DNA from: Spirochaetales bacterium
GTDB lineage: Bacteria; Spirochaetota; Spirochaetia; Treponematales; Treponemataceae
Length of the DNA stretch: 64,000 nucleotides
Direction of reading: 5' to 3'
Assembly (NCBI GenBank): GCA_003252395.1
Contig: QKEL01000011.1
Coordinates: 248,001 to 312,000 of the forward strand
In this document: in pieces, positions 28,739 to 57,668 of the stretch
Numbering within the stretch: the first letter of the stretch is position 1
Layout: every line of letters begins with the position of its first letter
The notes under the pieces: model-generated
What the model was told of the DNA's origin: nothing
The model's input: the letters and a program-made list of their open reading frames with translations, nothing else
The model's database searches: none
Program-made: the position numbers and the translations under genes

Positions 28739-29539
28739 ATGAAAGAGCGACTACCGGAGCAACCCATACTGCGCGAAGACATTGCCGCGGCCCTGCGCGT
28801 CGCCGGCCTTGAACGGGGAAACGCCGTTTTCGCCCATGCCTCCCTCTCGGCCTTTGGCTATATACTCGGCGGGGCCGAAACGGTAATCCGGGCCATTCTG
28901 GACGTTCTCGGTCCCGACGGGACCCTCATGATGCCCGCACAAACCTGGAAGAACCTTGATCCGGAAACCGGCGTGCATTGGGAAGTCCCGAAGGAATGGT
29001 GGCCCGCGATCCGCGACCACTGGCCCGCCTACGATCCGGCGGTTACCCCGTCCGTGGGCATGGGAGCCGTCGCCGAGGCGCTGAGGACCTGGCCCGGCTC
29101 GAAACGGTCCGCCCACCCCGCCCGATCGGTCAGCGCCGTGGGGAAATACGCCGCCTACCTCACCGAGAACCACGACCTCTCGGATATCTTCGGCGACGAC
29201 TCCCCCGTAGGGCGGCTCTATAAACTGGACGGACAGGTACTGCTATTCGGGGTCGGCCACGACAAGAACACCTCGATCCATCTCGCCGAATACCGCGCGG
29301 ACTGGGCAAAGCCGCGGGCCACCGAACGGAGCGCGATCGCGCGAAACGGCAAGCGGGAATGGGTTTCCTACGAGACCATCGCGGTGGACGATTCCGATTT
29401 TATAGCCCTGGGAGAGGCCTGGGAAAGGGCCTCGGGGCAACAGACGGCAGCGCTCGGAAACGGCATGATACGCTGTTTCGACCAAAGGCCCTTCGTGGAT
29501 TGGGCCACGGCCTGGCTGAGCGATAACCGTCGCGCGTAA
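28739..29539 (+). CDS. AAC(3)-family N-acetyltransferase
   Basis: 266 residues, antibiotic_NAT fold. Conserved segments: GNAVFAHASLSAFGYILGG at the N-terminus, GPDGTLMMPAQTW, HPARSVSAVG (acetyl-CoA region) and FGVGHDKNTSIHLAEY with the active-site His. Classic members acetylate the 3-amino group of aminoglycosides; chromosomal relatives such as YokD-type proteins often have other or unknown substrates, so resistance should not be assumed. CAGGAG is 7 bases before the ATG. It lies 31 bases before the aminotransferase gene. Confidence 0.88.
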   Translation: MKERLPEQPILREDIAAALRVAGLERGNAVFAHASLSAFGYILGGAETVIRAILDVLGPDGTLMMPAQTWKNLDPETGVHWEVPKEWWPAIRDHWPAYDPAVTPSVGMGAVAEALRTWPGSKRSAHPARSVSAVGKYAAYLTENHDLSDIFGDDSPVGRLYKLDGQVLLFGVGHDKNTSIHLAEYRADWAKPRATERSAIARNGKREWVSYETIAVDDSDFIALGEAWERASGQQTAALGNGMIRCFDQRPFVDWATAWLSDNRRA

Positions 29540-31098: not shown

Positions 31099-32325
31099 AT
31101 GCGCATAAAACACGTATTCGCTCCGTACCTCGGCCTCTCCGGGCCGATCTGGACCCTCTTCGCGGTACAGGTCATTAACCGGATGGGCGACTTCGTGCAC
31201 CCCTTCCTCACCCTCTTTTTGACCAAGCGCCTTGGTTACACCGAGGCGGCCACGGGCTTTTGGGTTACCGTCAACATCGTCGCCGGAACCCTGGGCATCA
31301 TGGCCGCGGGGAAGATTAGCGACCGCAAGGGGCGAAAGATAGTGCTTCTCGCCGGCATGGGGCTTTCTGCCCTCCTGATCGCCCTGGCGGGCTTCTGCCT
31401 TTCCTCTCCCCTCGTCGTGTACGTTCTCGTTGCCACCAGCTTTTTTCAGGGCATGGTTCGCCCCGCCATTTCCGCGCTTATCGCCGACCTGACCGGTCCC
31501 GACCAGAGAAAGGACGCCTACGCGCTGAGCTATCTCGGAATCAACATCGGGGTTTCCGTTGGCCCGATGATAGCGGGCTTTCTCTTTGAGCACCGGATAC
31601 GCTGGCTTTTTTGGGGCGACGCCCTCAGCTCGGCAGTCGCGCTCGCGTGTATCGCCCTCTTCATCCCCAATATACGGCACGGGGACCTGCCGGACCGACC
31701 CGAGTCGGTCGGCGAGGCCGTGTGGGACGGAAACGCCCTGACCGCCTTTTTCAAGCGGCCTATCCTCGTCGCCTTCTGTTTCTTGATTTTGGCGGTAAAC
31801 GTTATGTATACCCAAACCCACTTTGCCCTGCCCCTGTATGCCGAACGGCTCTTTCCCGGGCTGGGGGCCCTTACCTACGGCCGGCTTATGAGCTTCAACG
31901 CCGTGGTAGTCGTGGCTTTTACCCCCTTTATCAGCCACGTTAACCGCCGCCAGGCGCCCCTCGTATCCATGCAGATCGGCACGGCGCTCTACGCGGCGGG
32001 ATTCGCCATGATGGCCTTTGCCCTGCCCATGCCCCTCCTGTACGCGTCGACGCTGGTATGGACCCTGGGCGAAATAATGTTCTCGATCAATTCGGGGGTA
32101 TTCATGGCCGCGAGTACGCCGAAGAACCTGCGGGGGCAATTCCAGGCGTATCGGGAATTCATCGCCAGCCTCGGGAGGATTTTCTCGCCCCTCCTCGCCG
32201 GGCTCATTATCGGTTCAGCCAGCCTCTTCGCTACCTGGGGGGCCATTGGCGCCTTAGGCATCGCGGCGACGGCGGGATTCGCGCTATTGATCCGTTTTTC
32301 GAATAGGGCTAGGGCAAACCTTTAA
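31099..32325 (+). CDS. MFS transporter (drug/efflux-like)
   Basis: 408 residues from the ATG at 31099, about 12 membrane helices. The loop 2-3 motif GKISDRKGRKIVLLAG matches the MFS motif G-x-x-x-D-R-x-G-R-R. RPAISALIADLTGPDQRKDAYALSYLGINIGVSVGP is typical of DHA1-type multidrug or sugar-efflux members. The substrate is not readable. An upstream in-frame extension to 30970 overlaps the aminotransferase and would be hydrophilic, so it is rejected. The stop overlaps the convergent cyclase-like gene by 17 bases. Confidence 0.88.
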   Translation: MRIKHVFAPYLGLSGPIWTLFAVQVINRMGDFVHPFLTLFLTKRLGYTEAATGFWVTVNIVAGTLGIMAAGKISDRKGRKIVLLAGMGLSALLIALAGFCLSSPLVVYVLVATSFFQGMVRPAISALIADLTGPDQRKDAYALSYLGINIGVSVGPMIAGFLFEHRIRWLFWGDALSSAVALACIALFIPNIRHGDLPDRPESVGEAVWDGNALTAFFKRPILVAFCFLILAVNVMYTQTHFALPLYAERLFPGLGALTYGRLMSFNAVVVVAFTPFISHVNRRQAPLVSMQIGTALYAAGFAMMAFALPMPLLYASTLVWTLGEIMFSINSGVFMAASTPKNLRGQFQAYREFIASLGRIFSPLLAGLIIGSASLFATWGAIGALGIAATAGFALLIRFSNRARANL

Positions 32326-33796
32326 TGCCGTAAAAGTCCGACTGGCGGGGGGAATTCTGGGAACCCAGGGAACCGAGACGGACGAAACGGCTTTGAAGGT
32401 CCCGGTTCAGGCTCTCCATAACGCCCTCGGTCAGGCAAAAGTCGTTGCGGACCCGGTCATGCGCGGCCACCAGCCGGGCGGCCTCGGTGGCCGCGGGCCC
32501 GAGGGCGCCGAGCGTGACCGCGTTCCCCGCGCGAACCTCGCCAACGAGAACCGAACCGATCGCGAGCCCCACGCCGAAACGCTCCGGCACCGCGACCCCG
32601 CCCATGGCCAGCCTCGTGCGCACGGACGGCCAGCGTTCCCGCATCGACACGGCGCATTCCACCGCCGCCTTGCACTTGCCGGGGCGGTCGGCGCCACCGA
32701 ACAGCATGACGACGGAGCCCCCGGAAACGCTCGCGGGAAAGCCGCCGAAATCTTCGGCGCATAGGGCCCACTCCGCGAAGTACTCGGCGAGCATATCGAC
32801 CGTGCCCAAGGGAGTCGACGCTTCCGGATTCTCCCCCTCGCGTCCCATAGTCTCGACCAAATCGGAAAGGCCCCAGAGCCCGGCGTGCAGTACGCAATAT
32901 TCGGCGCACCCCGCGGGGAACTTCGCCTGGCTTTCAATCCCGCTTCCCGGTCCCGTTCCGTAAACCGATGAGAGTTCCAGATGGAAGGGCTCGGACTGCT
33001 CCGCGCGCGGAATCTCATAAGGCCCGTTTTTCCACTCATTCGTCGGCCCGTTTGCCAGCTCGGAGGGATTGTCGGCGGACGCGGTTTCAGGCCCCTCTTC
33101 CGCTATTCGAGCGCCATCTTCCTCGGCGCGCGCGCCTTCGCGGTAAGCCCCATCGGACGCAGCGCGCTTCGCACGGGCGGCTTCCGCTACCGGCACGGCT
33201 TGTGGGGCCATCCCCCTTCGCCCCGTCGCGAGGGCGAGGGCGAGAACGGGGGCGGCGAAGAGCGGATACGCGCCGTACGGAGCGACGGGGAGCGACGCGA
33301 TACGGGACAGAAAGTCAGCCGCGGCCAGGGCCGGCTCAGCTCCGCCCAGGGTAATCCAAGACCAGACAAGGAAAAACGCGGCGAGGTCGAGGATCACCAC
33401 GAGCCCCTCGAGGAGCCGCGCGGCGAACCGGCCGGAAAGGGCCAGGGAAAGGGCTTCGGCGAGGCCAAAGGCAAGGGCAAAAGCCCAATACCCCGCCAGG
33501 GCGGGCGTGAGGATAAAGACCGCGCCCGAGCGCAGGGCCAGTACGGTAAAGGTGAACGGGGTCAGAAGGCTCAAAATGAATCGGGGAAAGGGGAGGCCGC
33601 CGTAGGCGGTATGGAGAAGCGCCTGAATGAGCGCCACCGAAAGCAAGACGACGGTACCGGAATCGCCGAAAAAGGCGGTCCCTCCCGTGACTCCCCCGGC
33701 AATTGCGTAAAAAAGGGTGAACGGGGCCGAATACAGCAAGACCTCGCGAAGAAACCGGAATAGCGCCGCGGTAAAGCCGCCAGAGCGTGCGTTCAT
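32309..33796 (-). CDS. Membrane protein with degenerate class III nucleotide cyclase domain
   Basis: 495 residues from the ATG at 33796, which has GAGGAGG eight bases upstream (a TTG at 33811 lies within that site). Residues about 10-185 form five to six membrane helices; about 190-260 is a low-complexity Ala/Glu/Pro linker; about 280-480 is a class III cyclase fold recognised by VGLAIGSVLVGEVRAG and GALGPAATEAARLVAAHD. The first metal-binding block (normally F-x-D-I-x-G-F) reads LHAGLWGLSDL without the key Asp, and the second (normally GD) is altered, so cAMP synthesis is doubtful; it may be a pseudo-cyclase sensor. Confidence 0.72.
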   Translation of the reverse strand: MNARSGGFTAALFRFLREVLLYSAPFTLFYAIAGGVTGGTAFFGDSGTVVLLSVALIQALLHTAYGGLPFPRFILSLLTPFTFTVLALRSGAVFILTPALAGYWAFALAFGLAEALSLALSGRFAARLLEGLVVILDLAAFFLVWSWITLGGAEPALAAADFLSRIASLPVAPYGAYPLFAAPVLALALATGRRGMAPQAVPVAEAARAKRAASDGAYREGARAEEDGARIAEEGPETASADNPSELANGPTNEWKNGPYEIPRAEQSEPFHLELSSVYGTGPGSGIESQAKFPAGCAEYCVLHAGLWGLSDLVETMGREGENPEASTPLGTVDMLAEYFAEWALCAEDFGGFPASVSGGSVVMLFGGADRPGKCKAAVECAVSMRERWPSVRTRLAMGGVAVPERFGVGLAIGSVLVGEVRAGNAVTLGALGPAATEAARLVAAHDRVRNDFCLTEGVMESLNRDLQSRFVRLGSLGSQNSPRQSDFYGIKGLP

Positions 33797-33827
33797 GGAG
33801 AGCCTCCTCAAGGAACGTCTCCTTACC

Positions 33828-33856: not shown

Positions 33857-33915
33857 TGTTTTCCCCCAATAACCCCGTTGGGAAAGAAACCACCAATTCA
33901 TGTATAGTACAAGTA

Positions 33916-33945
33916 TTGCAAATTACATATTATGTGTTATACAAT
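33916..33945 (+). promoter_or_regulatory. Promoter and operator of the MarR-hgcA-hgcB operon
   Basis: TTGCAA (33916-33921), 18 bases, TACAAT (33940-33945). The palindrome ACATA-T-TATGT (33925-33935) sits inside the spacer, where MarR-family repressors often autoregulate. Transcription would start near 33951, giving a leader of about 15 bases that contains the AGGGAG ribosome-binding site (33954-33959). Confidence 0.6.
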
Positions 33946-33965
33946 GCAAACTCAGGGAGATACGA

Positions 33966-34424
33966 ATGACCGACATATCGATACGGGCCTTTCGCAAGGG
34001 GATTCGGGCGCTGGAACGGGAAGTAGAGCTCGCCTTGCTTAGCCAAACGGAGTGTTGCGGGGTTACCCCGGCTCAATGCCATCTCTTGCTCGCCGTGGAA
34101 GACGCGGGAGAACCCAGCGTGGGAGAACTCGCCGCGGAACTGGAACTCGACTCCTCTACCCTGTCGCGAACCGTGAACGGCTTGGTCAAAGCGAACCTCC
34201 TCGCCCGACGGGAGGATCCGGCAAACCGGCGCAGGCAGCTCGTGAGCCTTACCGAGGCCGGAATTAAACGGGCGAACGCCATTAACGCTTCCTGCGACGG
34301 GTACTACGAGGGGATTCTGTCCTCCCTGCCGGAAACGGAGTCGCGGGCGGTGGCGAACGCCCTGCCGGTATTCGTTACGGCGATGCGCGAGTGGCGCCGA
34401 GCGGGGCACGGATGCAACCGATAA
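33966..34424 (+). CDS. MarR-family transcriptional regulator, cysteine-rich
   Basis: 152 residues from the ATG at 33966 (AGGGAG six bases upstream). Winged helix-turn-helix: VGELAAELELDSSTLSRTVNGLVKANLL is the DNA-recognition region and REDPANRRRQLVSLTEAG the wing. Cys30, Cys31 and Cys38 cluster in TECCGVTPAQCH near the dimer/ligand interface, a plausible thiol or metal(loid) sensing site. It overlaps hgcA by 13 bases, so it very likely controls, and is co-transcribed with, the mercury-methylation pair. The ligand is not known from sequence. Confidence 0.88.
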   Translation: MTDISIRAFRKGIRALEREVELALLSQTECCGVTPAQCHLLLAVEDAGEPSVGELAAELELDSSTLSRTVNGLVKANLLARREDPANRRRQLVSLTEAGIKRANAINASCDGYYEGILSSLPETESRAVANALPVFVTAMREWRRAGHGCNR

Positions 34425-35503
34425 GCCTCCTGCCGCGCCGCCCCGCGGCCGATACGACGCAAGCCGGCTTCGTGGCCCTAAAGGCCCTGGAAAAGCCGTG
34501 GATCGGCGGGTATCTACTCCATGAAGGCAGAACCGTCCCCGTGGCGAAAACCGCCCTCTCCCTCCGCGACCGTCTGGGAAACCTCGCCGCCCGCTGGGGA
34601 TTCAGGCGGATGCGCCATGCGGTGCTTCCCGGCCTCTACGCGGCGGGGAAACCGGATAGGGCTTCGCCGGTCTTCGTGACCGCCAACTATAAAATGAGTT
34701 TCGACGCCCTCCGCGCCGCCCTCTCGGGCTACCCGTCCTGGATTCTGTTGCTGGATACCAAGGGGATTAACGTGTGGTGCGCCGCGGGAAAGGGAACCTT
34801 CGGCACCGGGGAACTGGTCCGACGGGTCGCCTCCGCGGGCCTTTCGAAGGTCGTAGACCATCGGACCCTTATCCTGCCCCAACTCGGCGCCAGCGGCGTT
34901 TCGGCGCCGGAAGCCGCCCGGCGGTCGGGCTTCCGGGTGGAATGGGGCCCGGTTCGCGCCGCGGACCTTCCCGCCTATCTCGCCGCGGGCGGGGTTAAGG
35001 ACGCGCGCATGCGCGAGGTCACGTTCACCCTGGCGGAACGAATGGCGGTGGCGCCCATCGAGATAGTCCATTCCTGGCCATTCGCCCTCGCCGCGTTGGC
35101 CCTGGCCTTCCTGCTCGGCCTACCCGCAAACGGTCATTGGGCGGCCCGCGCCGTCCCCCTGGCGGCGAGCCTTCTCGGCGCGATCCCCGTCGGCACGGTC
35201 CTTTATCCGGCGCTCTTGCCCTGGATTCCCGCGCGCCCCTTCATCGTCAAGGGCGCCGTTCTCGGCGTCGCCTGGGCGGTCTTGTGCGCCGCGGCATTCG
35301 CGTTCCCGCCGATCACGGCGCTGGGCGTCTTGCTGACGGCCGCCCCCGTATCGGCCTATCTCGCCATGAATTTCACCGGGTCGTCCACCTTTACGTGCCA
35401 GGAAGGCGCCCGCGCCGAGGTGGAGCGGGGATTCTGGCCCATGACGGTCTCGGCCGCCGCGGGACTGATCGCCCTGACGCTCGGAAGGCTTATCGGCGCC
35501 TAG
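34412..35503 (+). CDS. hgcA: Mercury methylation corrinoid protein HgcA
   Basis: 363 residues from the ATG at 34412 (a GTG at 34391 is the alternative). The diagnostic cap-helix motif NVWCAAGKGTFGT is intact; Cys123 would be the lower-axial cobalt ligand that lets the corrinoid pass a methyl group to Hg(II). The N-terminal about 200 residues form the CdhD-like corrinoid domain (FVTANYKMSFDAL; VVDHRTLILPQLGA); residues about 215-363 form about five membrane helices, as in known HgcA. Acts at the inner membrane with HgcB. It overlaps the MarR gene and ends 9 bases before hgcB. Confidence 0.95.
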   Translation: MQPISLLPRRPAADTTQAGFVALKALEKPWIGGYLLHEGRTVPVAKTALSLRDRLGNLAARWGFRRMRHAVLPGLYAAGKPDRASPVFVTANYKMSFDALRAALSGYPSWILLLDTKGINVWCAAGKGTFGTGELVRRVASAGLSKVVDHRTLILPQLGASGVSAPEAARRSGFRVEWGPVRAADLPAYLAAGGVKDARMREVTFTLAERMAVAPIEIVHSWPFALAALALAFLLGLPANGHWAARAVPLAASLLGAIPVGTVLYPALLPWIPARPFIVKGAVLGVAWAVLCAAAFAFPPITALGVLLTAAPVSAYLAMNFTGSSTFTCQEGARAEVERGFWPMTVSAAAGLIALTLGRLIGA

Positions 35504-35512
35504 GAGGTAGAA

Positions 35513-35797
35513 ATGCGCTTTGGCTATATCAAGAACGGAAGCTCGCTTTCGCTGCGCGCGGCCTCTTGCGTCGGATGCGGCGCCTGCGTTGACGTATGCC
35601 CCCACGGCGTTTTCTCCCTCGCCGACGGAAAGGCCTCCGTGACGGACCGCGAACGCTGCATGGAGTGCGGGGCCTGCGCGAGGAACAGCCCGGTTTCCGC
35701 GCTCTCGGTAACGGCGGGCGTGGGCTGCGCCGCGGCGATAATCGTCGGCAAGCTCACCGGAACGGCCCCGAACTGCGGCGGGGATACCTGCTGCTGA
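35513..35797 (+). CDS. hgcB: Mercury methylation ferredoxin HgcB, with Cys-to-Ser change
   Basis: 94 residues, the expected size. Two 4Fe-4S motifs: CVGCGACVDVCP (Cys19, 22, 25, 29) is complete; the second reads CMECGACARNSP, with Ser59 where the fourth Cys normally stands (codon AGC; TGC would restore it). GVGCAAAII (Cys72) and the C-terminal Cys88, Cys93-Cys94, thought to handle Hg(II), are present. HgcB reduces the HgcA corrinoid. GGAGG lies six bases before the ATG. The gene follows hgcA directly; no terminator is seen before recQ. Confidence 0.93.
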   Translation: MRFGYIKNGSSLSLRAASCVGCGACVDVCPHGVFSLADGKASVTDRERCMECGACARNSPVSALSVTAGVGCAAAIIVGKLTGTAPNCGGDTCC

Positions 35798-42848: not shown

Positions 42849-45800
42849 TTATTTCAGCACCGCACGTTCGTATCGCGCGTCGGTCATGTAGCCCAAGACC
42901 GTCTGGTTCGCGTAACCGCCCGTCGTCGGCAATCCCGAGCACACCACGCTATCCGTGGGCACGTTCGGGGTCGGTATCGTCATTGTCTCCCAGGAACCGG
43001 TATACCTATCGTTCACGGCCCCGTTCGTGAGGGAAGTCCAGTCGGACCGCCACGCGACCCGGACTGAATTCGACGTCTGGGTGAACGAAGGATAGAAGTA
43101 GGTGATATACGGGACCTGCCGTACCACGGAATTGATGGTTTCCGTGCGCGTATTCATCGTGATCTGGGTTCCCACAGAAAGGTAGGAGTCTACGGTCACG
43201 ACGGATATCTGGTCGGCGGTACAGTTATAGCTCGGCAGATACGCGTATTTCAGGTCGCCTTTGGCGCTGTTGTAATAGGCGATATGGATGCCGTCGTTCG
43301 CGTCGACTGCCATATCCACGTACCAACCCGAATAGCTGCTGTCGATCACCTTGGCGTTCGTTTGCCATACGCCTCCGACCACGGGGGTTCCGGGGGCCGT
43401 ATTGTAGGAGTATACCAACTGCCGGGCAGAGGCATCGTACCAGGCAAACACGGCCACGCCGCCGGAGGTAACGCCGACCGAGGTATATTGACCGCCTTTA
43501 TAGGTCATATCGTTGCCGGCCACCACGTGGAAGTTTGCCGCGGAACCGGTGCTCACGGTATTGTTCGTATACCCTTCGGCGGTTCCCGAAATATCCTGCG
43601 CCAATCCGTCAGTCATGGTATTCGCATTGTTGATGGTCCCGTACCTGAACTTCACCGGCGATTGCGTGTGATTATGGTCGAAATAGCTCATGTAGACCTG
43701 AGTGGCGGCGGTGGTGCCCCGTACGACCAGCTTGGGTATGGGGACCCTACCGATATCGTACACGCCGGTCGAGTTATTGTACACCGTTTCCAAGAGGCGT
43801 TTGCCCGTCCAGGAACTCGTATACCATATAGAGTTATCCCGCGCCACGGCACGCGAGTAGAACGCGAACTTCGCGGAAGTGTCGTTGATACGGTCCGTAT
43901 TGGTGGCCACCGCGTAGATATTCCCGGAGGAGTCGTATCCCACGTTGGTGTTATGGAACTTGTTGTAGCTATAGTCCACCTGCGTAACGCTTCCGTTTCT
44001 GTTGACCGCCATGCTGGGCACGCCGTTTCCGTAGCTCAGGTAATAATTGCTCGCGCCGTCCATCTTCATCATCGGGCTCGTGATATTCGTGCTCGCCACG
44101 AAGGCGCCCAGGTTCCAGACCCAAATGGCGCAGTCATCGTTCAGGCGATCGTTGTTTACCCCGTTTCCCTGAGAGTTATAGCCGTACGCCGTTATGGTTT
44201 GACCGTCGGCGGCGAAGGTCGGGTTACTGTTTACGTTATTAAGCGAGGGTATCGAGTTCACGGTAGCCACGATCGAGCCGCTATTGATGGTTCCACCGAT
44301 CGTAACGTTCAGGTGATCGCCCGAAACGACCGGCGTTCCGAGGCTGACGCCCCCCGCCGCAAGGCCCGTTGAGGCCCCGTTGAAATTGAAACCGTACGCC
44401 GAAACCGTCTCGCCGTTGTACACCGAATATCGACCCGAGGCCGAGCGGGCGAATTCAGCTCCGGCCATCGAGGAGATAGCCGTTCCGAGCCGCGTAACGT
44501 ACGGCACCACGTCCACCTGGTAGGAAGGAACGTTGTTGGTCGTCACGCTTCCGGTGGGGTTGGGGCTCTCGCTGGAGGCGTTGGGGCGGCGGTCCACCGC
44601 GATAACGCGTATCTGCCGGTCAGTGGCGGCCACGCCCGTTACGCGGGAACTGTCCCAATCGAGGCGCCAGTGCACCAGGTGTCCGCCCTGATCGAGGTAA
44701 TCCTGATCGAGGGTAAGGGACCAGCCCTGGCTTTCCACCGTGGCGGCCACGGGCTCCCAGAGTCCGGTGGTCGTGTTGAAGGTCGCGAGGCGCGTATAGG
44801 TCCTGCCCAGGGTCTCAGGGGTACCGTTCCCGTCGGTGTCGAACTGGTTGGACGTAGTAGCGGCATTCGTGAAGGTGAACTCGCTCGCAGTGCCGTTTCC
44901 GATGAACATCCAGATCGAGTCGAGCCGCTGGTCGTCGTAGATCGTGCCGCGCACGCTGATGCGGCCCGACACTTTCGGATCGAGATCGTACACGCCGGAT
45001 GCCTGGTTGAACGTGGCAACGGGTAAGTCGCCCGCGAGTTCAATGTGGCCGTTGTCCTTGGAGCCACCGTACAGGGAATTGTTCCCAACCCCGGGTCCCG
45101 TCCAGAAGAAGGGCGAGATCACCGAGCGCGGGTTCACTCCGTCGGTCACGTCGATCTGAATCGGCATGGTGAGAACCGCGTACTGGCTGTCGGTGCCGAG
45201 GGTGGTCTCCTCGGTGGAGTCCCAGATGCGGATAACGAGGGTGCGCGCCGCGCCGACGGCGGTCGTGATCGTGTCTCCCACCGCGGTCAACTGCGCCGTC
45301 GTTAGGTCTATGGTATTGATCCCGGCGACTTCCGAGTCGCGGAGGTACGTGTTGGTACCGCCGTTCGCGAGGTCATGGCCGGTCACGGCCGTTCCGCCGT
45401 CGGCGTCCATGTACATCACGTAATCGAGGATTCCGTTTCCGCCCACCACGTCGATATCCACTGAGGTGCGGCCCTTGGCGATGAAGGAGCTCGAGGCTAC
45501 CGTCGCCACGGCCTGCTCGTTTCCGGAGCCGTCCAGGGCGCTATACGCAGGGACCCGCTCGCCGGCGGACACGGAGCCGTTGCCGTCCAGGTCGGTGCCG
45601 AGGGTAACCGCGGCGAGCATGGGACGGTTGTTCTGCACGCTGGTGGACACCATGCCCGAGGCATAGTTGCCCGCCTTGTCGTAGGCGACCCAGTGAATCT
45701 CGATGGGACCGTCGGGAATGTTCCGCGAGTCGATGGAGGCGGTCCACGAGTAAAGGCCGCCGGCCCGTTCCACGGCCTCTATAAGCCCGTCGCCGTCGTC

Positions 45801-48800
45801 GTTGGTGATGGACACGAGGGTATCGCCGGACCATACGGGCGACTCTACCTTCTGGTTGTCTACCACGAGGGCATAGGCGATGTAGGCGTTCGTCACGGAC
45901 ACGGGTACGGGATCGGCCCACTGGATGGAGCCCGTCGCGTGGTCGACCGCGGAGATTAGGCGGTCGATTCCGCCGATGCTCACGAGGCCGCCCCGACGGA
46001 CGTTCAGGTTCCCGATAATGGAATTCGCCCGCAAGGTATATTGGTCGGGCCGCGCGAAGCCGGGGCTCGCCGAGGATACCGCGAGGCGCGGCAGGCCGTT
46101 CACCATGGGAAGCCCCGTAAGGTAGGTGCGGTTGGCGTTGCCCGTCCTCGTTTCCATGGGGTTATACACCCGGTCTCCGGTATCGGGAGTGACGTTCCGC
46201 TCGAAGTAGAAGGCCACGCGCTCGAAGCCGCTGCCCGATTCGTTGACCGTTGAGGCGAAGGTATAGGTATTGTTGCTCTGCGCCACGGGCGTTCCCGCCG
46301 TTATCGCCGTGCCCGAATGGGTCAGCGTGGAAACCGTCGGGTTCTCGTTATCGTAGTTTACGCGGACCGTGGTGGTGCTCGAAAGCTGGGGCGAGTTGTT
46401 GTCCAGCGCCGTAATGGTGAACTGGATGTCTCCCGTGGAGCCCGCGACGGTGGTAAGGGGGATATTGAGGATGTAATTGCCCACGCCCACGTCTCCGGCG
46501 GTGCCCGGGGTGAACCACGAGGGATTCGCCGCGAGGGAGCCGGTTATGTCCCCGGCGAGGGTGATCGCGGCGATGCCGCTTTCGTCGTCCACCGAGCCCG
46601 TGAGGGTCCAATCATCGCTCACCCACATATCGGCCTGGTACGGCAGCCGCACGGCGGGGCCTTGGGTAAGTTCCAGGGGCTGGAGCGAGCCGATCTTCGG
46701 CACGTTCTGGTCCACGTCGATCACGTAGGGGCCGACCCAGGTTCCGTCCACGGGGGTCGTATTTATGTCCCGGGCCCGCACGCGGAAGGAGATCCTTCTG
46801 AGGAGCTCCTCAACCGTGCCGGTGCCCGCCGCCGCGGCGCCCGAAGCGGTCGCGCGGAATTCGGTGCCCACGTTGTTATCGGGCGATCCCAGGGCGGTGT
46901 AGTCGGTTCCGTTCACCGTGACGATGCGGTACACGCTGCCGTTCCGGATCGCGGTGGCCGCGACGGCCCCGACGGCGGGGTTGAACTCGCCCGCGGTATT
47001 GATGCTGCGGTTCCAGCTAATGGTACCGCTCGCGAGCTGTCCGTTATTGGAGTTAAACCAGTCCGTGCCGTTGGAGGCCACGTCGGAGGCGTCGAAGGAC
47101 CCGTCGTTGTTCACGTCGATCTGCATCCACACGGAAGCCACGCCATCGTCGTCCTCGGAAGATCCGAACACGCGGATAATGCCGCCCATGACCCGGTTGG
47201 CGTCCATGGGGTCGGGATACACCACGGTGACCTTGGGCCTGTCGCCGGAGGGATCGACCTTGAGGACGTAGTTGGAGGTCGAGGTTACCGTCACGTTGCC
47301 CGCGTTGTCCTCGACGCGCATGACGATGGGGACGAGCCACAGGCCCGTATCGGCGCCGGTGCCGGCGGTTCCGTAGGTCCCGTTGGCGTAGGTATCGATT
47401 TTGTTCGCCCCGGTAAAGTTGATTTGCCAGGCGATATAGGGGGCCGAGGAGCTCACGTTCAGCCAGGCGGCTGAAGCGGGATCGAGATCGGCGTTAATGC
47501 CCACCTGGTACCGCACGGACTTGAGGCCCGAGCCGAGACCGTCGTCCGCGAGGCCCTTGACCTCGATGTCGCCGTTAACGGTGGAATTGACCACCGGGCT
47601 CTGGTGCGTCACCGTGGGCGCGGCGTTGTCGATCAGGATGGTTCGGGTGGCCGTCGTTTGCAGGTCGGAGTTGTCGGTCACGGTCACCGTGAGGGATACG
47701 TACCCGTTCGCCGCGAGGCTCACGTCTATGGCCCCGGTCGTGAAAAACTGCGAGCGTACGGTGCCCGTATCGGTTCCGATCCCGTCCCGATCAGCGGTGA
47801 AAACGGTTCCCACGGCGTTAGTGGTCGCGCCGAAGGCCGTGAAATTGGTGGTCGCGATCGTCTCGATCCGGTACACGCCGCCGCGCTTTATATCCGTGGC
47901 GTTGATGATCGGCGCGTTGGCGAAGGTCCCGGAAGCCGTGAAGGGCGAGCCGGCGACGCCGGGTACGGTGACGGAAACGCTCTTAATGCCGTTCGCGTCC
48001 GTGGCGGTAATGCCCACGGCGAACTGCTGGGCGCTGCCTCCGAAGGGGGCGTTGTTCGCGAGCGTTCCGGTAAAGGCGTCGGCGGCGTACGTAAAGGGAG
48101 CCTGCCTATCCACGAGAAGGGAACTGCCCACTTCCGGGGTTACCGTGTCCACGCGGAAGGTTACGGGCGCGCTCACCGCCGAGGCGCCGTAGCGAACGTA
48201 GGGCTCGTCCGCGGCGTCGGTGGTGAAGGTAGTCCCGCCGGCATCGGCCACGCGGAAGTACAGGGTTTTCGGCCCGTCTCCCGCGGAGGCGTTATAGCTC
48301 CACATTCCCCCGGTTAGCGTGACCGCGGTCCAGGAAGAGCCGTTTTCGGAAACCGACAGCCCGGTCACCCCGTCGTCGTCGCTCACGGTGCCGTACACGG
48401 TGTTGATGAGCTTGAGGGTCGTGGTGCCGTCCACGTTCACGTTGGTAAGGGTTACGGTGGGACGGTCGGAATCCTGATCGACCGTGAGGGTGCGTTCCAC
48501 GTCGGTAACGTTGCCCGCTACGTCCACGCCATGGGCCCGTACGCGGAGTTGGAGCCCCGCGGCCCCGGCGTCGCTATCGTAGTTCGCCGCGTTGAGCGTG
48601 ATCGGTAAGGTCTGGAAGCCGCTATGGGTCCAGGTGGTATCGAAGGCCATGGTTCCCGTCTCGGCGGCGATCCACTGCCACGAGCCGGCGGTAAACGTAT
48701 ACACCTGGAGCGTCATGGAATCCATGCCGTTCGTGTCGCTCGCGGAACCGCTCAACGAGAAGGTCTTATTGACCGTATTGCCGGTCGAATGGGAGGTAAA

Positions 48801-51800
48801 GGTGACGGTCGGGGCCGTCTGGTCGATGATGATCGACTGGCCCATGACGACGGAACGCCTTCCCGCCTCGTCTGTCACGCGGAGGTAGATTTTCCGGTTG
48901 CCCGCGGCAAGGCCGGAAAGGTCCGTCACGGAGACCGTCGCGGTACCGGCGACGACGGGGGCGCTATACACCGGCAGGGTATCGAAGTCGGTGTTCCCCG
49001 CCTTCGCCTCGACGAGAACGGGACCGCTCGTGGCGTCGGTGGCGCTTATCGTGATAGCGAGGCTACCGGTGCCGTTGTCCACGGGGATGGTGACGGGGTT
49101 CGTAATGTCGAAATCCGGGTCGATCGTATCGATCCAGACGGTTTGGTCCGTCCTCGGGGTCGCGCCCGTCGAGGGAACGCTCGCGTTTCCGGCGCGGTCC
49201 ACCGCGCGTACCTGCAGCCGATTGTCGTTCCCGTCGGCGAAGGTGGCGGTACCCGAGAAGGTAGCGGTGCCCGTGAGGTTCGACCAGGAGCCCCAGGAAA
49301 TTCCGTTATTGTCCGAAACGCGGTATTCAACGTACGAAAGCCCGCTGCCGCCGGTATCGGCGGCGGTGCCGCTCAGGGCCTGGCTGCCCGCGGTAAACCA
49401 GGTTCCGTGTATGTCGGTTAGGTCGGTGACGGTCGGCGCGGACCTATCGATAACCACGGTCCTCGCGACGGACGTAGCCTTTCCCGCCGCGTCGGTCGCG
49501 GTGAATACGAGGGCGTAGGGGCCTTCGGACCGGCTCGCCGCGTCGAAGGTGTAGGTCCAGCTATCGTCGCCGGTATCGATGGCGATATTCTCCGCGGCCG
49601 CGCCGTTAACGCTGACCGTAAGTCCCGTCGCGGGGTTGAGGTAGTTCGAGTCGCTGGCGGTTCCGCCGAATACCAGGTCAGCGTTCCGGTACTGGGTATC
49701 GGTGGTGCCGACGGATAGCTCGTTGAGGGAAGGCGGCGCGACGTCGTAATAGAAATTGACGGAGTCGAGGCCCACGTTGCCCAGCCTATCGGCTGAACGG
49801 ACCCATAGCCGCATGGGGCCTTCGGTCGCCCCAAGGCTCACGCCCGCCGCGCTCCAGTTTATGGTCGCGTCCAGGGAGCCCATGGAAGTCCAGTTTCCGT
49901 CAATGCCGTTCGAGGAATCGAGGCTGTATTCCGCGTCGATATAATCCGTCCCGGTCCCGCCGTACACGAAGCCCACGCCGCCCGTGTCCCGGCTCGTTCC
50001 GCTTATGGTATAGCTCGAGGTAGCGGACGACTCGCCGTCTCCCGGCGCCGCGATGGACACCGTCGGGCCTGTCGTGTCGATGGTAACGGTCTTGGTTATC
50101 GTCGTGGTGAGGCCCGAGGAATCCAGGGCGATAAACGTAAGTTCCCAGTTTCCGTCGTTGCCCGCCACCGTTTGGGTATAGGTCCAGGCGCCGAGCGCGG
50201 GCGCAATCGCCACGTCCGCGAGGGAAACGCCGTTCCGCTTCCGCTTCAGAGTAAGGGGAGCGGCCCCGTCAAGGGCGAGATTATCAGAGATGGAACCCGA
50301 GTAGGTGAGGTTGACTCTGGTTTCGGTCGTATTATTCGGGACCGTCTCCGTGAAGATCGGCGCCGTCGCGTCGACCCTTACCGTATGGAGACCGCTCACC
50401 GCGCTCACGTTGCCCGCGCGGTCTATGGACCGGAGATAGAGCTGGTTCGCGGCGCTCTGGGGGAAGGTAATGGTTCCCACCCAGTTCGTCGTCCCGCTCA
50501 AATCGGTCCAGGTGGCGTTGTCCAGGGAGTACTGTACCGAGGCGACCCCGGTATTCACGGTTCCCGCCGTGTCGGCGGCCGATCCGCCCACGGTAACGTC
50601 GGTCAAACGCTGCCAGGCGGTCAGGTTGGTCGAGAGGGATACCGTGGGATCGGTCTTATCCAGGGCGACGGTCCGGGTCACCGAACTGTGACGCCCGGCG
50701 GCGTCGGTGGCGGTAAACGTGAGGGTATAGGTTCCCTCGGCCCGCACATCCGCGTCGAAAGAATACGACCAGGTACCACCGGTAACGGCGACCGCGCCCT
50801 CCGAAAGGCCGTCTATGGTCAATGACAGGGTAGGCAGGGCGCTGGCGTTCGTGTCGGTGAGCGTTCCGCTGAAGCTCACGTCGGCGTTGGAATAGCGGAT
50901 ATCGGTATTGCCCACGAGGGTCTCGGCGAGAGCGGGATTCGCGTGGTCCGCCATAAAGGTACTGCTCGACGGGGCGGAAACGTTGCCCGCCACGTCGGTA
51001 GCCCGTACGTACACCGTGCGGATCCCTTCCGCGAGCGCCGACGCCCCGATGTCGGTCTTATACCAAACCGTGGTGCCGTTCAGGGCAAACCAATCCGCCC
51101 CGCCGTTCACGGAATATTCCACCCGATCGACGCCGCTGGTGGCGTGCGTGGAGGCGTCGCTGGCGGTACCGCTCACCGAGAGGCTAGTGTCCGCGTAGTA
51201 GCCGCCCGCGAAGGCGGCGATGCTTACCGAGGGCGCGACCGTGTCGATGAGAACGGTCCGGGTCGTCACGGTTTCGCGATTGGCCTGATCGATCGCCGAT
51301 ACGCTGTACACCCACAGCCCTTCGAGGGTATGGGAGGAAGCGTTTACGGGATAGGTATGGTTAAATGAGATCTGATGGTCCGCTTCCGCCCAGGACGCGG
51401 AATACAACGTTCCCTGGGATACGCCGTCGCGGGTCGCCGTGAGGGTGAGCGATCTCAGCGCGTTGGTATCGGAAGCCGAAATATCGAGATCGAAATCGCC
51501 GGTCCGGAAAACCTGCTCGGTACCCACGCTGCCCGTGCCGGTCACGCCGAGGGTCGGCGCGGCCTTATCGTAATAGAAATCGACGAAGTCGCTCGATCGG
51601 TTGCCGAGGCGATCGGTAGACCGCGCGTACAGTTTCTTCGCGCCTTCCACGTCCGCGAGGGTCACCGTCCTGGACCAATTGTAGCCGCTCCACTCGCTCG
51701 GCGTCGCGGCGGGGTCGAACGCCGTCCAGGTTCCGTTCGATCCGTCCGTGGAATCGAAGCTGTACTCCACCGCCCCGGTCGCGGGGAAACCCACGCCGGT

Positions 51801-54800
51801 GCCGTCGGTGGAAATGCCGTTGATGGAGAAGGTGGCCGAGCTTTCCTGCTGCCCGGTCTGGGGCGCGGCGATTCCCAGGGTCGGGGCCGCGGTGTCGATC
51901 TTCACCGAGCGGGAAACGGATGCCGTTTTGCCCGCCAGATCGACTACCGAGAGGGTCACGTTATACATACCGTCGCCCAAGGCGGTGCCCAGGGTCCAGG
52001 TCCACGCGCCCGTAGCGGGATTTAGATTGAATTGGGTCGCGCCGGCCCCGGCGGGCACGGTAACCGCCGCGCCGCCGTCCTTGCTATAAGTCAGCGTGGC
52101 GGAAGCGGGCTGCCGACCGGGCGTTACCGCCGCGTCGTCGGCGATGCCGGAGAAGACGACATTGGCGTTGGAGGCGGTGGTTATGGGCGCGGCGTCGATA
52201 GAGGTCGCGAGGGTCGCCCGGGGATTGGCCAGGTCGATCGTGTAGTTCGCGGAAACCTCGGCGCTCGCGTTACCCGCGTTGTCCGTGGCCCGGGCGAGAA
52301 TCTGCCGCGTGGGGCCTTCGTTGGTGGAGCCGAAGTCATGGGTATAGTACCAAACCGAGGTTCCTTCGGGTACGTCCCAGGTGCTTCCCCCGTCCATCGA
52401 TACTTCGAGCGAGGCAATGCCCGAATCGGCTTCGACTACGGTGCCCCGGAAGGTGTATTCCTGGGTAGTGACGGCAATGTTGGAGGCGCTGCCCGTAATC
52501 GTGACCACCGGGGAAATCGCGTCAACCTGGACCTCCCGCGTAAGGGCGGTAACGTTGCCGGCGACGTCCGTGGCGGTGACCGTATAGCGGTAGACGCCTT
52601 GGGCAGGGGCCGCGACGGCGAAAGACCAGCTTCCGTCGGCCGCGGGAACCACGGTCTGGGTCGTTACCGCGCCGTTATCGAGGCTCCAGGCGACGGTCAG
52701 GGAATGAAGGGCGTTCGTATCTTGGGCAAAACCGGCGAGCGAGAACGCGCCGGTGCGGTATTGCCTTGAGGAAGAGCTGAAGAGGGTTTCGCTCAAAGAC
52801 GGGAGGTTTTTATCGAATATAACCTGACAAACCGGCGTAACCGGTCCGTAGTTTTCCAGGGTCGCGTCGAAGGTATCGTCGGCGAAACGAGCCCACAGGT
52901 AATAAGTGCCCTCCACGACGCTTCCGATCGGTACGCTCGCGGAGAAGCCCCGGTCGGTCCCGGTAAGGGCGTTATCAACCTCGGCTGCCGTCCACCCCGC
53001 GGTGCTCGCGCCGGAGGGGGCGGCGGAAGTCGGGGTAAATAGGAGGATCGCGTTGGTAAGGTCGCCCGTGGCGAAGCCCCGAACGTTCACCAAAGAATCG
53101 GTCACGACGGCCTTGCCGGCGGCGACGTGGCCTACGCCCTTGAGTACCGGGCTCGTAAGGGAAACCAGAGTCGGCGGGGTATCGTCGACCTGATAGGTCA
53201 CCTCGCGAACCGACGAAGTATACAGACCGTCGGCAAGCTGGAACCGCAAGGTCCTCGTGTCGCCCTCGCTGGGCGGCACGTCAAGGGTAATGGTCCAGGT
53301 ATAGTTGGTTACGTAGCCCGCGGTGGATTCGCTCCGCGTTATGAACGCGTCGGCCGGAACCGCCCCGTTCTCCGTCAGGGCGAGCGTAACGTCGGTATCG
53401 TCGTCGGATCCCTTGACCACCACCTGGAATTTTCCGCCCGAGGAGTTGATCTTGGTATATACCGTAGAGGAGCTCGTGCTCTTGTCGGGGCTCACGGAAA
53501 TGAGGCTCGGCGCTCCTTGATTGATGCGGAAGCCGTACCGCTTCGTCACGATATGGGGAGCCTTGTCCCCGGCGGTCACGTCGAGCTGGAACTGTCCCTG
53601 AGATTTCTCGATGAGCAAATTCACGGAGAGGTCGGCCCCGATGCTCTTTACGTTCAGGTCGGCGGTATGCCACACGACGCGTTGATCGGTGAGCAGCGTT
53701 ACGCCGTCGAGGTCGAAGGGCGTAAGGGCGATTTCCAGGGCGTCGATATCCAGGGGGTCCCCGTTTTTATTCCGATAAATCGTTATCAGCGGGTTCGGCA
53801 GCGGAGAAACGGTGTTGTCCGTGGCGCGGGGAGTGCCGCTGGCGATCGGGAGCGATTCGATCTCGATGGTCGGGTTCTGGCTCGAGGGCTCAAAGGAGAA
53901 ATTGCCGTTTTCGGTCAAGGCGAAATCGGACGGCAGACTGGAGATCCGAAGCGAGGGAAGGCTCGCCGTGAGGGTTTGATAGCCGTAGCCGTCCAAGGCC
54001 GCGAGGTTTCCGGCGTCGTACGCGGAAAGGTCGTTCAGCTTCGGATACGTCTCGCCCACCGCGAGGGCGTTGGATATGTCGAGATAATTATAAAAGTGGG
54101 TGGTCGTGTTGCCGGTCTTCCCCGCGGTCAGCGCGGCGCCGGTTTCGGTCGGGTCGAGATACTGGTACGCCGCGTCCTGCAGGTCGACCGTATACCAGAA
54201 AGTCCCGAGGCCAGAGGCGGGAAGGGCGCTTTCCAGGGCGTGCCACAAACCGTCCGGATCGTTGGCCTCGGTAAGGGAGAAGCTCCAACTCGCGTCCGGG
54301 GGCATGGTATACGTGAAGGGCGTCGCCGAAACGGGCAGCCCGGCCGCGTCGAAAAAGTAAACGTGGAGCCGGCTCGGGCCGGACTCGTCGTAGAACGTTC
54401 CGTTGAATTTAATGTCGGAACCGAAGGCGTCGAATTGGTTAACGTCCGCGAGGTTTCCCTTGGTGGAGGGCCGCTGAACCACTAGGACCGGCGGCGTATT
54501 GTCCATATTGAAGGAAGTCGTGGCCGAGGTCCTCCGTCCGGCGCTGTCCACCGCCTCGGCCTTCACGTCGTAGCGGCCGTCGGCGGAGGGCTGGGGCACG
54601 GTAACCTTCCAGGTCTTCGCCGCCGCGTCTATCGTGGCCGACCAGGGGCCGAAGGCCTTGCCCGCGTCTGCCCCGCTTTTCGCGGTCAATGTCACGAGCA
54701 CTTGCGAAAGCCCGGTTTCGTCCGTGGCGCTGCCGGCCACCACGAAGTCGCCCCGGATATAGCTCACCGTCGTCGGCGGGTAGCTGATGCTTACCGTCGG

Positions 54801-54923: not shown

Positions 54924-57668
54924 TTAAAAAACGCTAAGACGGATACCGCCGGTTACGTGCGGTATGATGCTGTTGATATTGACCTCCGTCGAGCTGACGT
55001 CGGTCGGGATAAACCAGAGTTGGGCCTCGGTGTATGCGGAGAAGGTCCTGAAGGTTTTGCGCTTCGGGATCGTTACCCGCGGGAACTCAAGCTGAACGAG
55101 CATGGCCGAGAGGATCTGAGGGGTGCCGCTCTGGGTTTCGGTAAAAAGGGAGAAATTGGCGCCGATCGCCCCCGAGGCGGAAAGCCAGGAGAAATCGGGT
55201 CCGAAGAAATAGTCCAGGGGAACGTAGGCCACGTTCGCGAGGAGCTTTATGCCGAGCACGTTGCCGCCGTACCGCATGGAGCCCTCGGTGAACACCGCGC
55301 GCTGGGCGTCGGTGAACTGGCCGAATTGGCCCTGCAGCTTTACGTTGTCGTCGAAGAAGGTAAGCCCGATCCCCACGTCGTAAAGCGTCGCGCCCCAGAA
55401 ATGCCAGTCGAAATAAAGGCCCTGGATAAACGAGGGGAGCGCGTACGACGACTTGTCGCCCGGGCGGAGGGCGAGGTTCACCGAGTCAAGGCTGACGTCG
55501 TCGGAGCTGAGCCCCGAGAACGTAAGCTCGTTATTGTAGCGGCCGCCCTCGCCGGGGGAGATGAGCCGGATGGTCGGCAGGGTCTTGTCTATCTGGACGA
55601 TGGAACGGGTTACCGCGGTCTCTCCGTTTCGCATGGTCGCGCGGAGCAGGATAAAGTGGTAGCCCTCGCTGAGTTCGCCCGTTTCCAGGCGGTATCGCCA
55701 CTTCTTGCCCGATTCGGTGGCCACGAAGGTCTTTCCGTTGTCGAAGCTGATCTCCACCTTCTCCACGGCCTTGTCCTGCAGGGCCTTCCGGGTATCCTTG
55801 GGCGTGTCCTTCGATTTCAGGGCGAACACCTCGTCCTCGGTAAGCGCGTATCCCGCGGTACCCTCGAGCCAGGGGCGGTCGATGGCGAAGTCGCCCATGG
55901 CGAGGTTGTCTATGGTCACCCAGGGGCCGCTCGCCGAGTAGACGATTTCGTGGGGGTCCGAGACGATGACCGAGTCTCCCGCGGCCAGGGCGCGCACCTT
56001 GACCGTGTGGGGGCCGTCGGTCACGGTTTCCGGGCTCAGGGTAAACTTGAAATAGCCCGAGGGGCTCAATTCCGCGGTGCCCGCGTCCGCGTCGTCCACG
56101 TAGAGAATAAGGGAGCTTACCGGGTCTTCCGATATGACGCGGCCGTACAGGTTAAAGAGGCCCTGCATGCGCTGGCCGTTCAGGGGATAGAGGAATTCGA
56201 TCCGGTTCCGGTCGTCGCCCCGGTATACCTCGAAATTCCGGGAAACGCGGGTCACGTTCCCCGCGAGGTCTATGCCGCGGACTTCCACGTTGTAGAAACC
56301 TTCCGCGAGGGCGGTCACGTCGATCCCGCCCGAAATGATGAGGGAATTCTCGAAAGAGATCTTGTCGTAGCCGGCGGGCATGGCGGGCTGCTTGGCGTCC
56401 AAGCCGCTTATCCGCGCGGTTACGCCGGCGAGATTGATATTGTCCAGGGTCTGGCCCGAGATAAACAGGGTATTCGCCACGCGGCTTCCGTCCAGGGGGA
56501 GCTCCAGCTTGATGGAGGGCGCGGTGTTGTCGATATTGATCAGGCTCGAATACAGCCCGGTTATGCCGTAATTGTCGTACACGCGGACGAACACCACGTG
56601 GGTCCCGTCCTGGATCACCCGGGTGTCGAAACGGTACGACCACTCGTCGGTCCCCTCGGCCACGTTGAAGGAGTTGCCGTTATCGAGGGAAACCTCCACC
56701 CGCTCTATCCCGTTTTTGTCCGAGGCGGTCCCGCTGACGGTGAGCGAGCCCTTATTCGTGGTCTCGAAGGAGGGGGCGAGAACCGAGGCCTTCGGCTCCT
56801 CCAGCGACACGCGCACGGTCCGCGTAACCTCTTCGCCCCGTACCCCGTGAATGTCCTCGGCGTAGAGGGTGATCGTGTGCTCGTTATCGGTGAGGGTCGA
56901 AAGGGCGACGGGTATGGAATAGCTGTGCTCGATATCCATGGAGATAAACTCCCCGTCGTCGACCTTGTACCACACCCGCGCCGGGGCGTCGTCGTCGTAT
57001 ACCACGCCGGAGACCACGAAGTCCTTCCGGATCACCTCGTTCTCCGCGGGCAGGTGAATCTCCACCACGGGCAGGTCGGTTTGGGGCTCGATGGAAAAGA
57101 GCCAGGAGGAGACGCCGCGCGCGTTGCCCGCCGCGTCGGTGAAGCGGAATTCCATATTGGGCGCGATGGGTTTTTCGGCGGTGCCGACCAGCGCGTTAAT
57201 CGCGGAGGAAAGCTCCAGTGGCTGCCACTCGGTCGCGTCTTTCGCCGTCCGGTCGCCGGGGGCGCGGTATTCCGCCTTCGCGATGGGGTTCGCGTCCACC
57301 GGGTCAAACGCGATTCGCGTCTCGCCGTTCACCGCGTCGCCGGGCTCGGGGAATATCACGGAAATTTCGGGGGGCGTCGTGTCCTTGTTGAACGCCCTGC
57401 GGTCAAGGGTTTCCCGCCCGTTCACGTCGGTGGCGCGGACCAGAAAGTCCAAAGGCCCGTCGGGTCGGGCGGAAATATCGAGGCTCGACGGGGTTTCCCC
57501 GTCGCCTTTGTCGAAGAGGTTCCAGGTAAGGCCGCCGTCGGCGGACCATTCCACCGCCGCGATTCCCGCGCCGTCGGAGGCGTCTACGGCGACGGGCAGT
57601 TTGTCCTGCAGCCAGACGGGCCGAGCCGAGGTATCCACGGACAGGAACGGGGCTTGCGAATCCACCAC
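54924..57668 (-). CDS. Ig-repeat protein ending in outer-membrane barrel, 3' part after frameshift
   Basis: About 914 codons in the second frame of what appears to be one gene of about 1,750 residues (54924-60178). It carries Ig-like units (VSGTASDKNGIERVEVSLDNG, VFVRVYDNYG...), then a C-terminal domain of about 190 residues with membrane-barrel strands (GLYFDWHFWGATLYDVGIGLTFFDD; IGANFSLFTETQSG) ending in SVF, the barrel signature. The first apparent start lies in the middle of homologous sequence, so a separate start is unlikely. The inferred full protein would be an outer-membrane anchor displaying an Ig stalk. The stop is 12 bases before the giant lipoprotein gene. Confidence 0.75.
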   Translation of the reverse strand: MVDSQAPFLSVDTSARPVWLQDKLPVAVDASDGAGIAAVEWSADGGLTWNLFDKGDGETPSSLDISARPDGPLDFLVRATDVNGRETLDRRAFNKDTTPPEISVIFPEPGDAVNGETRIAFDPVDANPIAKAEYRAPGDRTAKDATEWQPLELSSAINALVGTAEKPIAPNMEFRFTDAAGNARGVSSWLFSIEPQTDLPVVEIHLPAENEVIRKDFVVSGVVYDDDAPARVWYKVDDGEFISMDIEHSYSIPVALSTLTDNEHTITLYAEDIHGVRGEEVTRTVRVSLEEPKASVLAPSFETTNKGSLTVSGTASDKNGIERVEVSLDNGNSFNVAEGTDEWSYRFDTRVIQDGTHVVFVRVYDNYGITGLYSSLINIDNTAPSIKLELPLDGSRVANTLFISGQTLDNINLAGVTARISGLDAKQPAMPAGYDKISFENSLIISGGIDVTALAEGFYNVEVRGIDLAGNVTRVSRNFEVYRGDDRNRIEFLYPLNGQRMQGLFNLYGRVISEDPVSSLILYVDDADAGTAELSPSGYFKFTLSPETVTDGPHTVKVRALAAGDSVIVSDPHEIVYSASGPWVTIDNLAMGDFAIDRPWLEGTAGYALTEDEVFALKSKDTPKDTRKALQDKAVEKVEISFDNGKTFVATESGKKWRYRLETGELSEGYHFILLRATMRNGETAVTRSIVQIDKTLPTIRLISPGEGGRYNNELTFSGLSSDDVSLDSVNLALRPGDKSSYALPSFIQGLYFDWHFWGATLYDVGIGLTFFDDNVKLQGQFGQFTDAQRAVFTEGSMRYGGNVLGIKLLANVAYVPLDYFFGPDFSWLSASGAIGANFSLFTETQSGTPQILSAMLVQLEFPRVTIPKRKTFRTFSAYTEAQLWFIPTDVSSTEVNINSIIPHVTGGIRLSVF

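Follow-up and report, generated by a model that had tools for sequence, protein, structure and literature searches.

What induces hgcAB, and what purpose it serves, is an open question for the prediction of methylmercury formation. A locus in which the mercury-methylation genes hgcA and hgcB follow a gene for a MarR-type regulator lies in a stretch of 64,000 nucleotides (the window) on contig QKEL01000011.1 of a Spirochaetales bacterium (assembly GCA_003252395.1), the genome of which comprises 3.41 Mb in 15 contigs, is 92.9% complete and holds a single HgcA. The initial annotation described it as a complete mercury-methylation operon with its own regulator. The analysis reported here leads us to favour, with moderate confidence, a self-repressed marR-hgcAB operon in which MarR would sense a metal(loid) with affinity for thiols, either As(III)-like or Hg(II). 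While the gene set is of a known kind, the regulator class, taken with its operator and its link to arsenic methylation, is a new form of it.

The genes are, with near certainty, homologues of hgcA and hgcB together with a marR gene. The three frames are open and were found in the order and on the strand first described (marR, hgcA, hgcB; Table 1), the hgcA start overlapping the 3' end of marR and a gap of 9 nt separating hgcA from hgcB. The earlier start of the element at 33916 had to be abandoned, as this position is no start codon of the marR frame and falls within the operator array; a second in-frame ATG for marR is found at 33900. In the profile searches that the initial annotation had suggested, both proteins exceeded the equivalog cut-offs: HgcA scored 399.2 bits against NCBIfam NF040863 (cut-off 275), covering positions 1-322 of the 325 in the profile, and HgcB scored 110.3 bits against NF040864 (cut-off 99). 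The cap-helix motif NVWCAAGK is present in HgcA as claimed, its Cys being residue 123 counted from the ATG at 34412 (codon at 34778). For the C-terminal membrane domain, which in this family has five helices, a crude hydropathy scan revealed three strong segments within residues 218-308, and the profile alignment reaches near the C-terminus. Placement with CdhD/AcsC, the gamma subunit of carbon monoxide dehydrogenase/acetyl-CoA synthase, and without the cap-helix Cys, had been named as the outcome that would speak against HgcA; it was ruled out, since NF003195 gave 57 bits against a cut-off of 306 and the Cys is there. An HgcAB-like fusion was ruled out as well (NF043039, 195 bits, cut-off 285). 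The PF03599 profile was matched above its cut-off (37.7 against 24.8), yet over residues 70-161 only. A search of the PLSDB plasmids gave no match to HgcA.

Table 1. Features of the marR-hgcA-hgcB locus (window coordinates)
Feature	Coordinates	Strand	Remarks
Operator copy A, predicted MarR binding site ATGTATAGTACAA	33900..33912		Position weight matrix site
Operator copy B TTGCAAATTACAT	33916..33928		16 bp from the start of copy A; contains the predicted -35
Operator copy C ATGTGTTATACAA	33932..33944		16 bp from the start of copy B; weakest; overlaps the predicted -10
Predicted sigma-70-like promoter TTGCAA-18-TACAAT	33916..33945	+	Consensus scan only
marR	33966..34424	+	152 aa; ATG start; GGGAG ahead of the ATG; PF12802 57 bits
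hgcA	34412..35503	+	363 aa from ATG; alternative GTG at 34391 gives 370 aa; NF040863 399.2 bits
hgcB	35513..35797	+	94 aa; GGAGG upstream; NF040864 110.3 bits

The occurrence of this arrangement was determined starting from either gene. HgcA above the cut-off was found in 47 of the 392 sampled genomes of the window's phylum, and published passages already report Spirochaetes as hgcA carriers, so the statement that spirochaete carriers are few did not stand. One further genome assigned to the genus of the window (G366) encodes HgcA too, the gene there being cut by a contig end. A MarR like that of the window was located upstream of hgcA at 23 of the 47 loci, a count that includes one locus from which HgcA leaves the contig (L048; a later script found 22) and one in which masked bases obscure the motif (L003). 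The loci lacking it showed, by eye, ArsR-type, AbrB-type, Acr3-like or other upstream genes. Three further phylum samples, entered via Syntrophus (L074), Syntrophomonadaceae (L105) and Acidobacteria (L086) loci, held HgcA above the cut-off in 52 of 198, 24 of 299 and 5 of 199 genomes respectively, with MarR adjoining hgcA in 8 of the 52, 4 of the 24 and 3 of the 5.

From the side of the regulator, the MarR alignment was used to scan GTDB genomes; this yielded 167 relatives, of which the best 80 were retained. The scan pattern requires the Cys motif, and this set is thus unfit to test Cys conservation. Among these best 80 of 167, hgcA was directly downstream in 61 (60 with hgcB), spread across several phyla, and upstream in 1; 2 ended at a contig edge and 16 had no hgcA. 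The association that the initial annotation had drawn between MarR and hgcA is therefore genuine. In 8 of the 16 relatives without hgcA the gene directly downstream was arsM, above the NF008823 cut-off; three of these arsM-linked MarRs belong to Sporomusa, one to Syntrophomonadaceae and four to other Bacillota. Neighbours were profiled in seven of the remaining 8 relatives (L081 was left out). The gene downstream in L085 is a methyltransferase below all cut-offs, that in L121 a short frame with no match, and in L102 and L126 the neighbours lie on the opposite strand. In two Chloroflexota loci (L084, L114) the MarR and the operator are followed by the gene of a large MalT-like regulator that scored below its cut-off. 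In L127 an ArsN1-like acetyltransferase (6487-6999; 125.6 bits, cut-off 170) follows a subfamily MarR with operator and is possibly another arsenic-related target. Within the window's phylum a sequence search separated the subfamily MarRs from all others by a gap (6.5e-41 against 1.1e-24); the two exceptions, at 1.2e-29 and 7.4e-17, are both pieces of a single masked gene. At L161 a subfamily MarR that has lost one Cys of the pair (2677-3228) is preceded by an operator and adjoins no hgcA; the sole HgcA match of that genome lies elsewhere and is below the cut-off.

The regions upstream of marR, 90 of them distinct, were searched for a motif under a palindrome constraint. The consensus palindrome AGTTGTATnATACAACT emerged with a log-likelihood of 793, whereas six dinucleotide-shuffled sets, for which fewer starts were used, reached 44-65. 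At a threshold of 12 bits, a site was present upstream of 61 of 72 hgcA-linked and 5 of 8 arsM-linked marR genes and of 7 of 10 that had another neighbour or lay at a contig edge, against 6 of 1800 shuffled regions. The best site pairs were spaced by exactly 16 bp in 51 of 57 cases, by 32 bp in 4 and otherwise in 2. When the four phylum samples were combined, and L048 was counted among the loci with MarR, the site was found at 33 of 38 MarR-hgcA loci and at 1 of 90 hgcA loci without MarR. At this lone MarR-less locus with a good operator (L192) the regulator is of the ArsR type (70.8 bits against NF033788, cut-off 55). The first operator matrix was trained partly on the window's phylum, and the independent evidence consists of a retrained matrix and a held-out test. 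The held-out set was drawn from other phyla than the window's and had no region in common with the training loci (L229 was excluded, its region being that of L094); in it the site was present at 10 of 11 MarR-hgcA loci and at 1 of 66 MarR-less hgcA loci (Fisher p = 1.1e-10).

These counts bear on the view that MarR is a bystander of hgcA, placed there by chance or by ancestry within a small clade. Such a view gains something from the hgcA loci that lack this MarR, which are 24 of the 47 in the window's phylum and likewise 44 of 52 and 20 of 24 in two other phyla, but the association recurs in several phyla from either gene and, in the sequences compared, the presence of the operator tracks MarR and not hgcA. 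Chance adjacency was rejected on the two-way recurrence together with the held-out test, and we regard the bystander explanation as very improbable.

In the window itself three operator copies (33900-33944) extend across the predicted promoter. With the matrix retrained on 68 loci, from which the window and its near kin had been removed, copy B ranked first in the 64 kb (9.6 bits), copy A second (8.7 bits) and copy C fifth (6.3 bits); the third-ranked site (7.9 bits) lies outside the array. The 16-bp-phased pairs of the array scored 18.3 and 15.9, compared with -0.7 for the next pair in the 64 kb. The tandem pattern, which had been loosened after the window and its kin were viewed, occurred with at most one mismatch only at the marR promoter in the 3.4-Mb genome, and with three mismatches the reversed control matched 2 places, about equal to the true pattern beyond the marR promoter. 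The tandem pattern alone was rejected as a regulon marker, as two-mismatch matches turned up in 63 of the 392 phylum genomes, many of them scattered and unrelated to MarR. Promoter-like sites near marR numbered 2, against 0.3 expected from shuffles, and TTGCAA-18-TACAAT overlaps copies B and C. The DNA logic of the locus, that is the operator, its phasing and the association with MarR, is well supported by these comparisons, and it is very probable that MarR would bind the array.

The relationship between hgcA-linked and arsM-linked regulators was analyzed on a tree of 95 MarRs (short search, support by the Shimodaira-Hasegawa-like approximate likelihood ratio test, midpoint root). One clade with 99% support mixes, interleaved, 7 arsM-linked, 5 hgcA-linked and 4 other MarRs and 1 with hgcA upstream. 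On the starred branches the arsM label must change no fewer than 5 times, and the tree as a whole needs 6 changes; the eighth arsM-linked MarR (L112) groups with a very long branch, at an unsure position. A mirror-tree comparison of MarR and HgcA gave r = 0.72 over 49 loci (permutation maximum 0.15), which would be compatible with co-transfer and equally with plain common descent, and it was given no weight. We tentatively propose, at slightly less than even confidence, that a MarR subfamily with a three-thiol sensor, acting on a TTGTATnATACAA operator phased at 16 bp, serves as a metal(loid) switch and has in evolution been moved repeatedly between arsM and hgcAB.

The regulator has an ordinary MarR fold and matches the MarR winged-helix profile (PF12802, 57 bits). 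Assignment to the ArsR/SmtB family was rejected, as the protein fell short of the cut-offs of PF01022 (21.7 bits against 22) and NF033788 (24.1 against 55); the broad PF12840 (HTH_20) was the sole ArsR-side profile passed (28.7 against 27). The three-Cys cluster noted in the overlapping MarR gene is real and consists of C30, C31 and C38 (CC-x6-C), to which a single C150 in the C-terminal tail is added. It is conserved in the spirochaete MarRs, which were reached via HgcA and hence can test the conservation of Cys residues: in the 22 that were aligned, every protein has C30 and C38 and 21 have C31 as well, a 23rd (L003) being omitted because it is partly masked. In the AlphaFold model (mean predicted local distance difference test score 93.2) C30 and C31 are placed at the end of helix 1 and C38 within helix 2.

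From these features we infer that marR, hgcA and hgcB would form one operon transcribed from a single promoter. A MarR dimer would cover the tandem AGTTGTATnATACAACT palindromes, with starts 16 bp apart, over the -35 and -10 elements and so shut off its own operon. At the junction of helix 1 and helix 2 the thiols of C30, C31 and C38, perhaps assisted by the Cys-bearing C-terminal tail, would capture a thiophilic metal(loid), most likely As(III)-like or Hg(II), and the bound metal(loid) would free MarR from the DNA. Methylation of the metal by HgcA, the membrane corrinoid protein, and HgcB, its ferredoxin, could then proceed. The sensing of a thiophilic metal(loid) by MarR is less secure than the binding of the array and is judged only moderately probable.

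MarR proteins such as OhrR and MexR are thiol/redox or small-molecule sensors, and oxidants and aromatic acids are common signals of the family. The MarR of this locus could likewise be a sensor of this kind, its Cys residues forming disulfides and holding no metal, and would then tune hgcAB to redox state or to a metabolite. Its ordinary MarR fold agrees with such a role, as do the Cys patterns, which differ among lineages that retain the operator. On the other hand, the spirochaete MarRs have three near-invariant Cys in a stretch of nine residues, which resemble a soft-metal site, and the repeated swaps of target between hgcAB and arsM suggest a metal(loid) signal, because both systems methylate thiophilic elements. 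We therefore consider the redox or small-molecule sensor unlikely, although it is the strongest of the alternatives.

Several observations weigh against the proposed self-repressed, metal(loid)-responsive operon. Most spirochaete kin of this MarR have a C-terminal Cys pair, of which the window protein keeps one Cys only. Among the Syntrophus-phylum MarRs adjoining hgcA, 6 of 8 have other Cys patterns and keep the operator, and a Bacillota MarR (L215) lacks the third Cys and has the operator; since all seven Cys-variant loci keep it, the CC-x6-C site is dispensable for the DNA logic. The operator itself is not universal, as no 12-bit site was found at 4 of the 23 spirochaete MarR-hgcA loci (L007, L012, L038 and L042; the upstream region of L012 is missing), and the best sites of the three Sporomusa arsM loci reached 0.1, 0.1 and 8.2 bits, none of them at least 12. 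On the tree the arsM label is somewhat clustered, 9 of 500 shuffles reaching 6 changes or fewer. Finally, the window's own genome, at its 92.9% completeness, gave no match to arsM and shows no local link to arsenic methylation. The divergent Syntrophus-phylum MarRs (L165, L170 and L250; L177, L185 and L191) carry the patterns RC..QD..(F/N)C and C..CCGEQ.

Whether the operon is complete, as first described, depends on HgcB. Both HgcA and HgcB exceed curated cut-offs, but a Ser residue in HgcB, to which the initial annotation did not refer, makes completeness uncertain. The first CxxCxxCxxxCP motif of HgcB is intact; in the second (CMECGACARNSP) Ser59 replaces the last Cys, giving NSP and not NCP (codon 35687-35689), and HgcB thus lacks the two intact motifs that mark the family. 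According to passages of PMC7305189, the Cys equivalent to this position ligates one of the two HgcB clusters, and Cys73 (numbering of strain ND132) and the C-terminal Cys residues are important. HgcB of the window retains C72, which corresponds to Cys73 of ND132, and, in agreement with the description of a 94-residue protein ending in a Cys pair, it terminates in GDTCC with C93 and C94. For comparison 184 HgcB frames were gathered, of which 15 were duplicates and 5 had no exact CxECGxC motif, leaving 164 distinct frames with the motif; the counts refer to distinct reading frames, and near-copies of one gene may be counted repeatedly. The position of Ser59 is occupied by Cys in 162 of the 164, by Gly in one (L052, a relative in which the first cluster motif is odd too) and by Ser only in the window; six further relatives (L049, L050, L051, L053, L054 and L055) have Cys. 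Because nearly all frames and these relatives carry Cys, Ser59 is peculiar to the window sequence and may represent a mutation or a sequence error. The protein is best taken as an HgcB homologue, its full function being unproven.

Ser59 also counts against an active operon, since it may mean an impaired enzyme unless it is a sequence error, and it speaks for regarding the locus as a decaying or inactive copy. With HgcB minus a cluster ligand and MarR minus a tail Cys, little or no methylmercury would be formed; besides the unique Ser among the 164 frames, the operator copies of the window are below consensus strength. Against decay speak the three open frames, the retained cap-helix Cys of HgcA, C72 and the C-terminal Cys pair of HgcB, and the operators, which stand out within the window; in addition, the genome is a draft, and a lone deviating residue in it may reflect a sequence error. 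We judge decay to be rather improbable, and less likely than a redox-sensing MarR; an active, self-repressed operon is still preferred. A search for HgcB in viral contigs gave 1 weak relative (32% identity) among 17 candidate stretches, a lead that went nowhere.

Outside the operon, recQ starts 63 nt downstream of hgcB, and a 500-aa frame without Pfam match (32309-33811, - strand) is divergent from marR. Two proteins of 4020 and 914 aa with bacterial Ig-like repeats (Big_13, Big_7), encoded on the - strand at 42849-54911 and 54924-57668, are likely large surface proteins. An aminoglycoside 3-N-acetyltransferase family protein (28739-29539; PF02522, 274 bits) has a class-V aminotransferase and a major facilitator superfamily transporter as neighbours.

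If MarR is indeed a metal(loid) switch that moves between arsM and hgcAB, then hgcAB would be one arm of the response to As(III)-type stress, with consequences for the native role of HgcAB, which is still unsolved. A regulator and predicted operator shared with arsM, and present in several phyla, make both the induction and the purpose of hgcAB testable.

A Lake Mendota study reportedly mentions marR-like genes near hgcA. The regulator had been called little described, which is true in part: a single sentence in the passages of PMC10349881 states that in Dethiobacter alkaliphilus and Geobacter daltonii hgcA is preceded by a MarR-family gene, the same arrangement as in the window. Those passages give no Cys motif, operator or arsM link for these MarRs, unlike the present analysis. 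Our partial search of the literature on MarR, hgcAB and arsM regulation likewise found no description of any of these three features, and among papers pairing MarR with hgcA only PMC10349881 named a MarR beside hgcA; the passages of PMC8060452 contain no MarR-arsM operon.

According to passages of PMC7438021, hgcAB is preceded in 112 genomes by a conserved putative regulator that is left unnamed there and is defined on permafrost Acidobacteria, Verrucomicrobia, Deltaproteobacteria and one actinobacterium. By our own reasoning it is probably the present MarR family, because the MarR-hgcA loci L072, L077, L078 and L089 come from 'fen' Acidobacteria and Myxococcales genomes, presumably of the same project. 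Unlike the MarR of the window, that regulator has, in those passages, no named family, ligand site, operator or arsM link.

The MarR-arsM loci of Sporomusa, Syntrophomonadaceae and other Bacillota contain regulators of the same CC-x6-C subfamily as the window, with an operator of at least 12 bits in 5 of 8. Their target differs, being an arsenite methyltransferase, fused to ArsN2 in three Sporomusa, and not hgcAB.

In Pseudodesulfovibrio mercurii ND132 an ArsR gene upstream of hgcAB is co-transcribed with it and regulates it in an arsenic-responsive manner (Gionfriddo et al. 2023, as related in passages of PMC10349881). The window resembles ND132 in having a regulator gene upstream of hgcAB. 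It differs from that ArsR-like system (PF01022) in the MarR fold, the CC-x6-C cluster and the predicted 16-bp-phased TTGTATnATACAA operator. With the regulator and its predicted operator as markers, metagenomic DNA by itself suffices to distinguish the ArsR type of hgcAB regulator from the MarR type.

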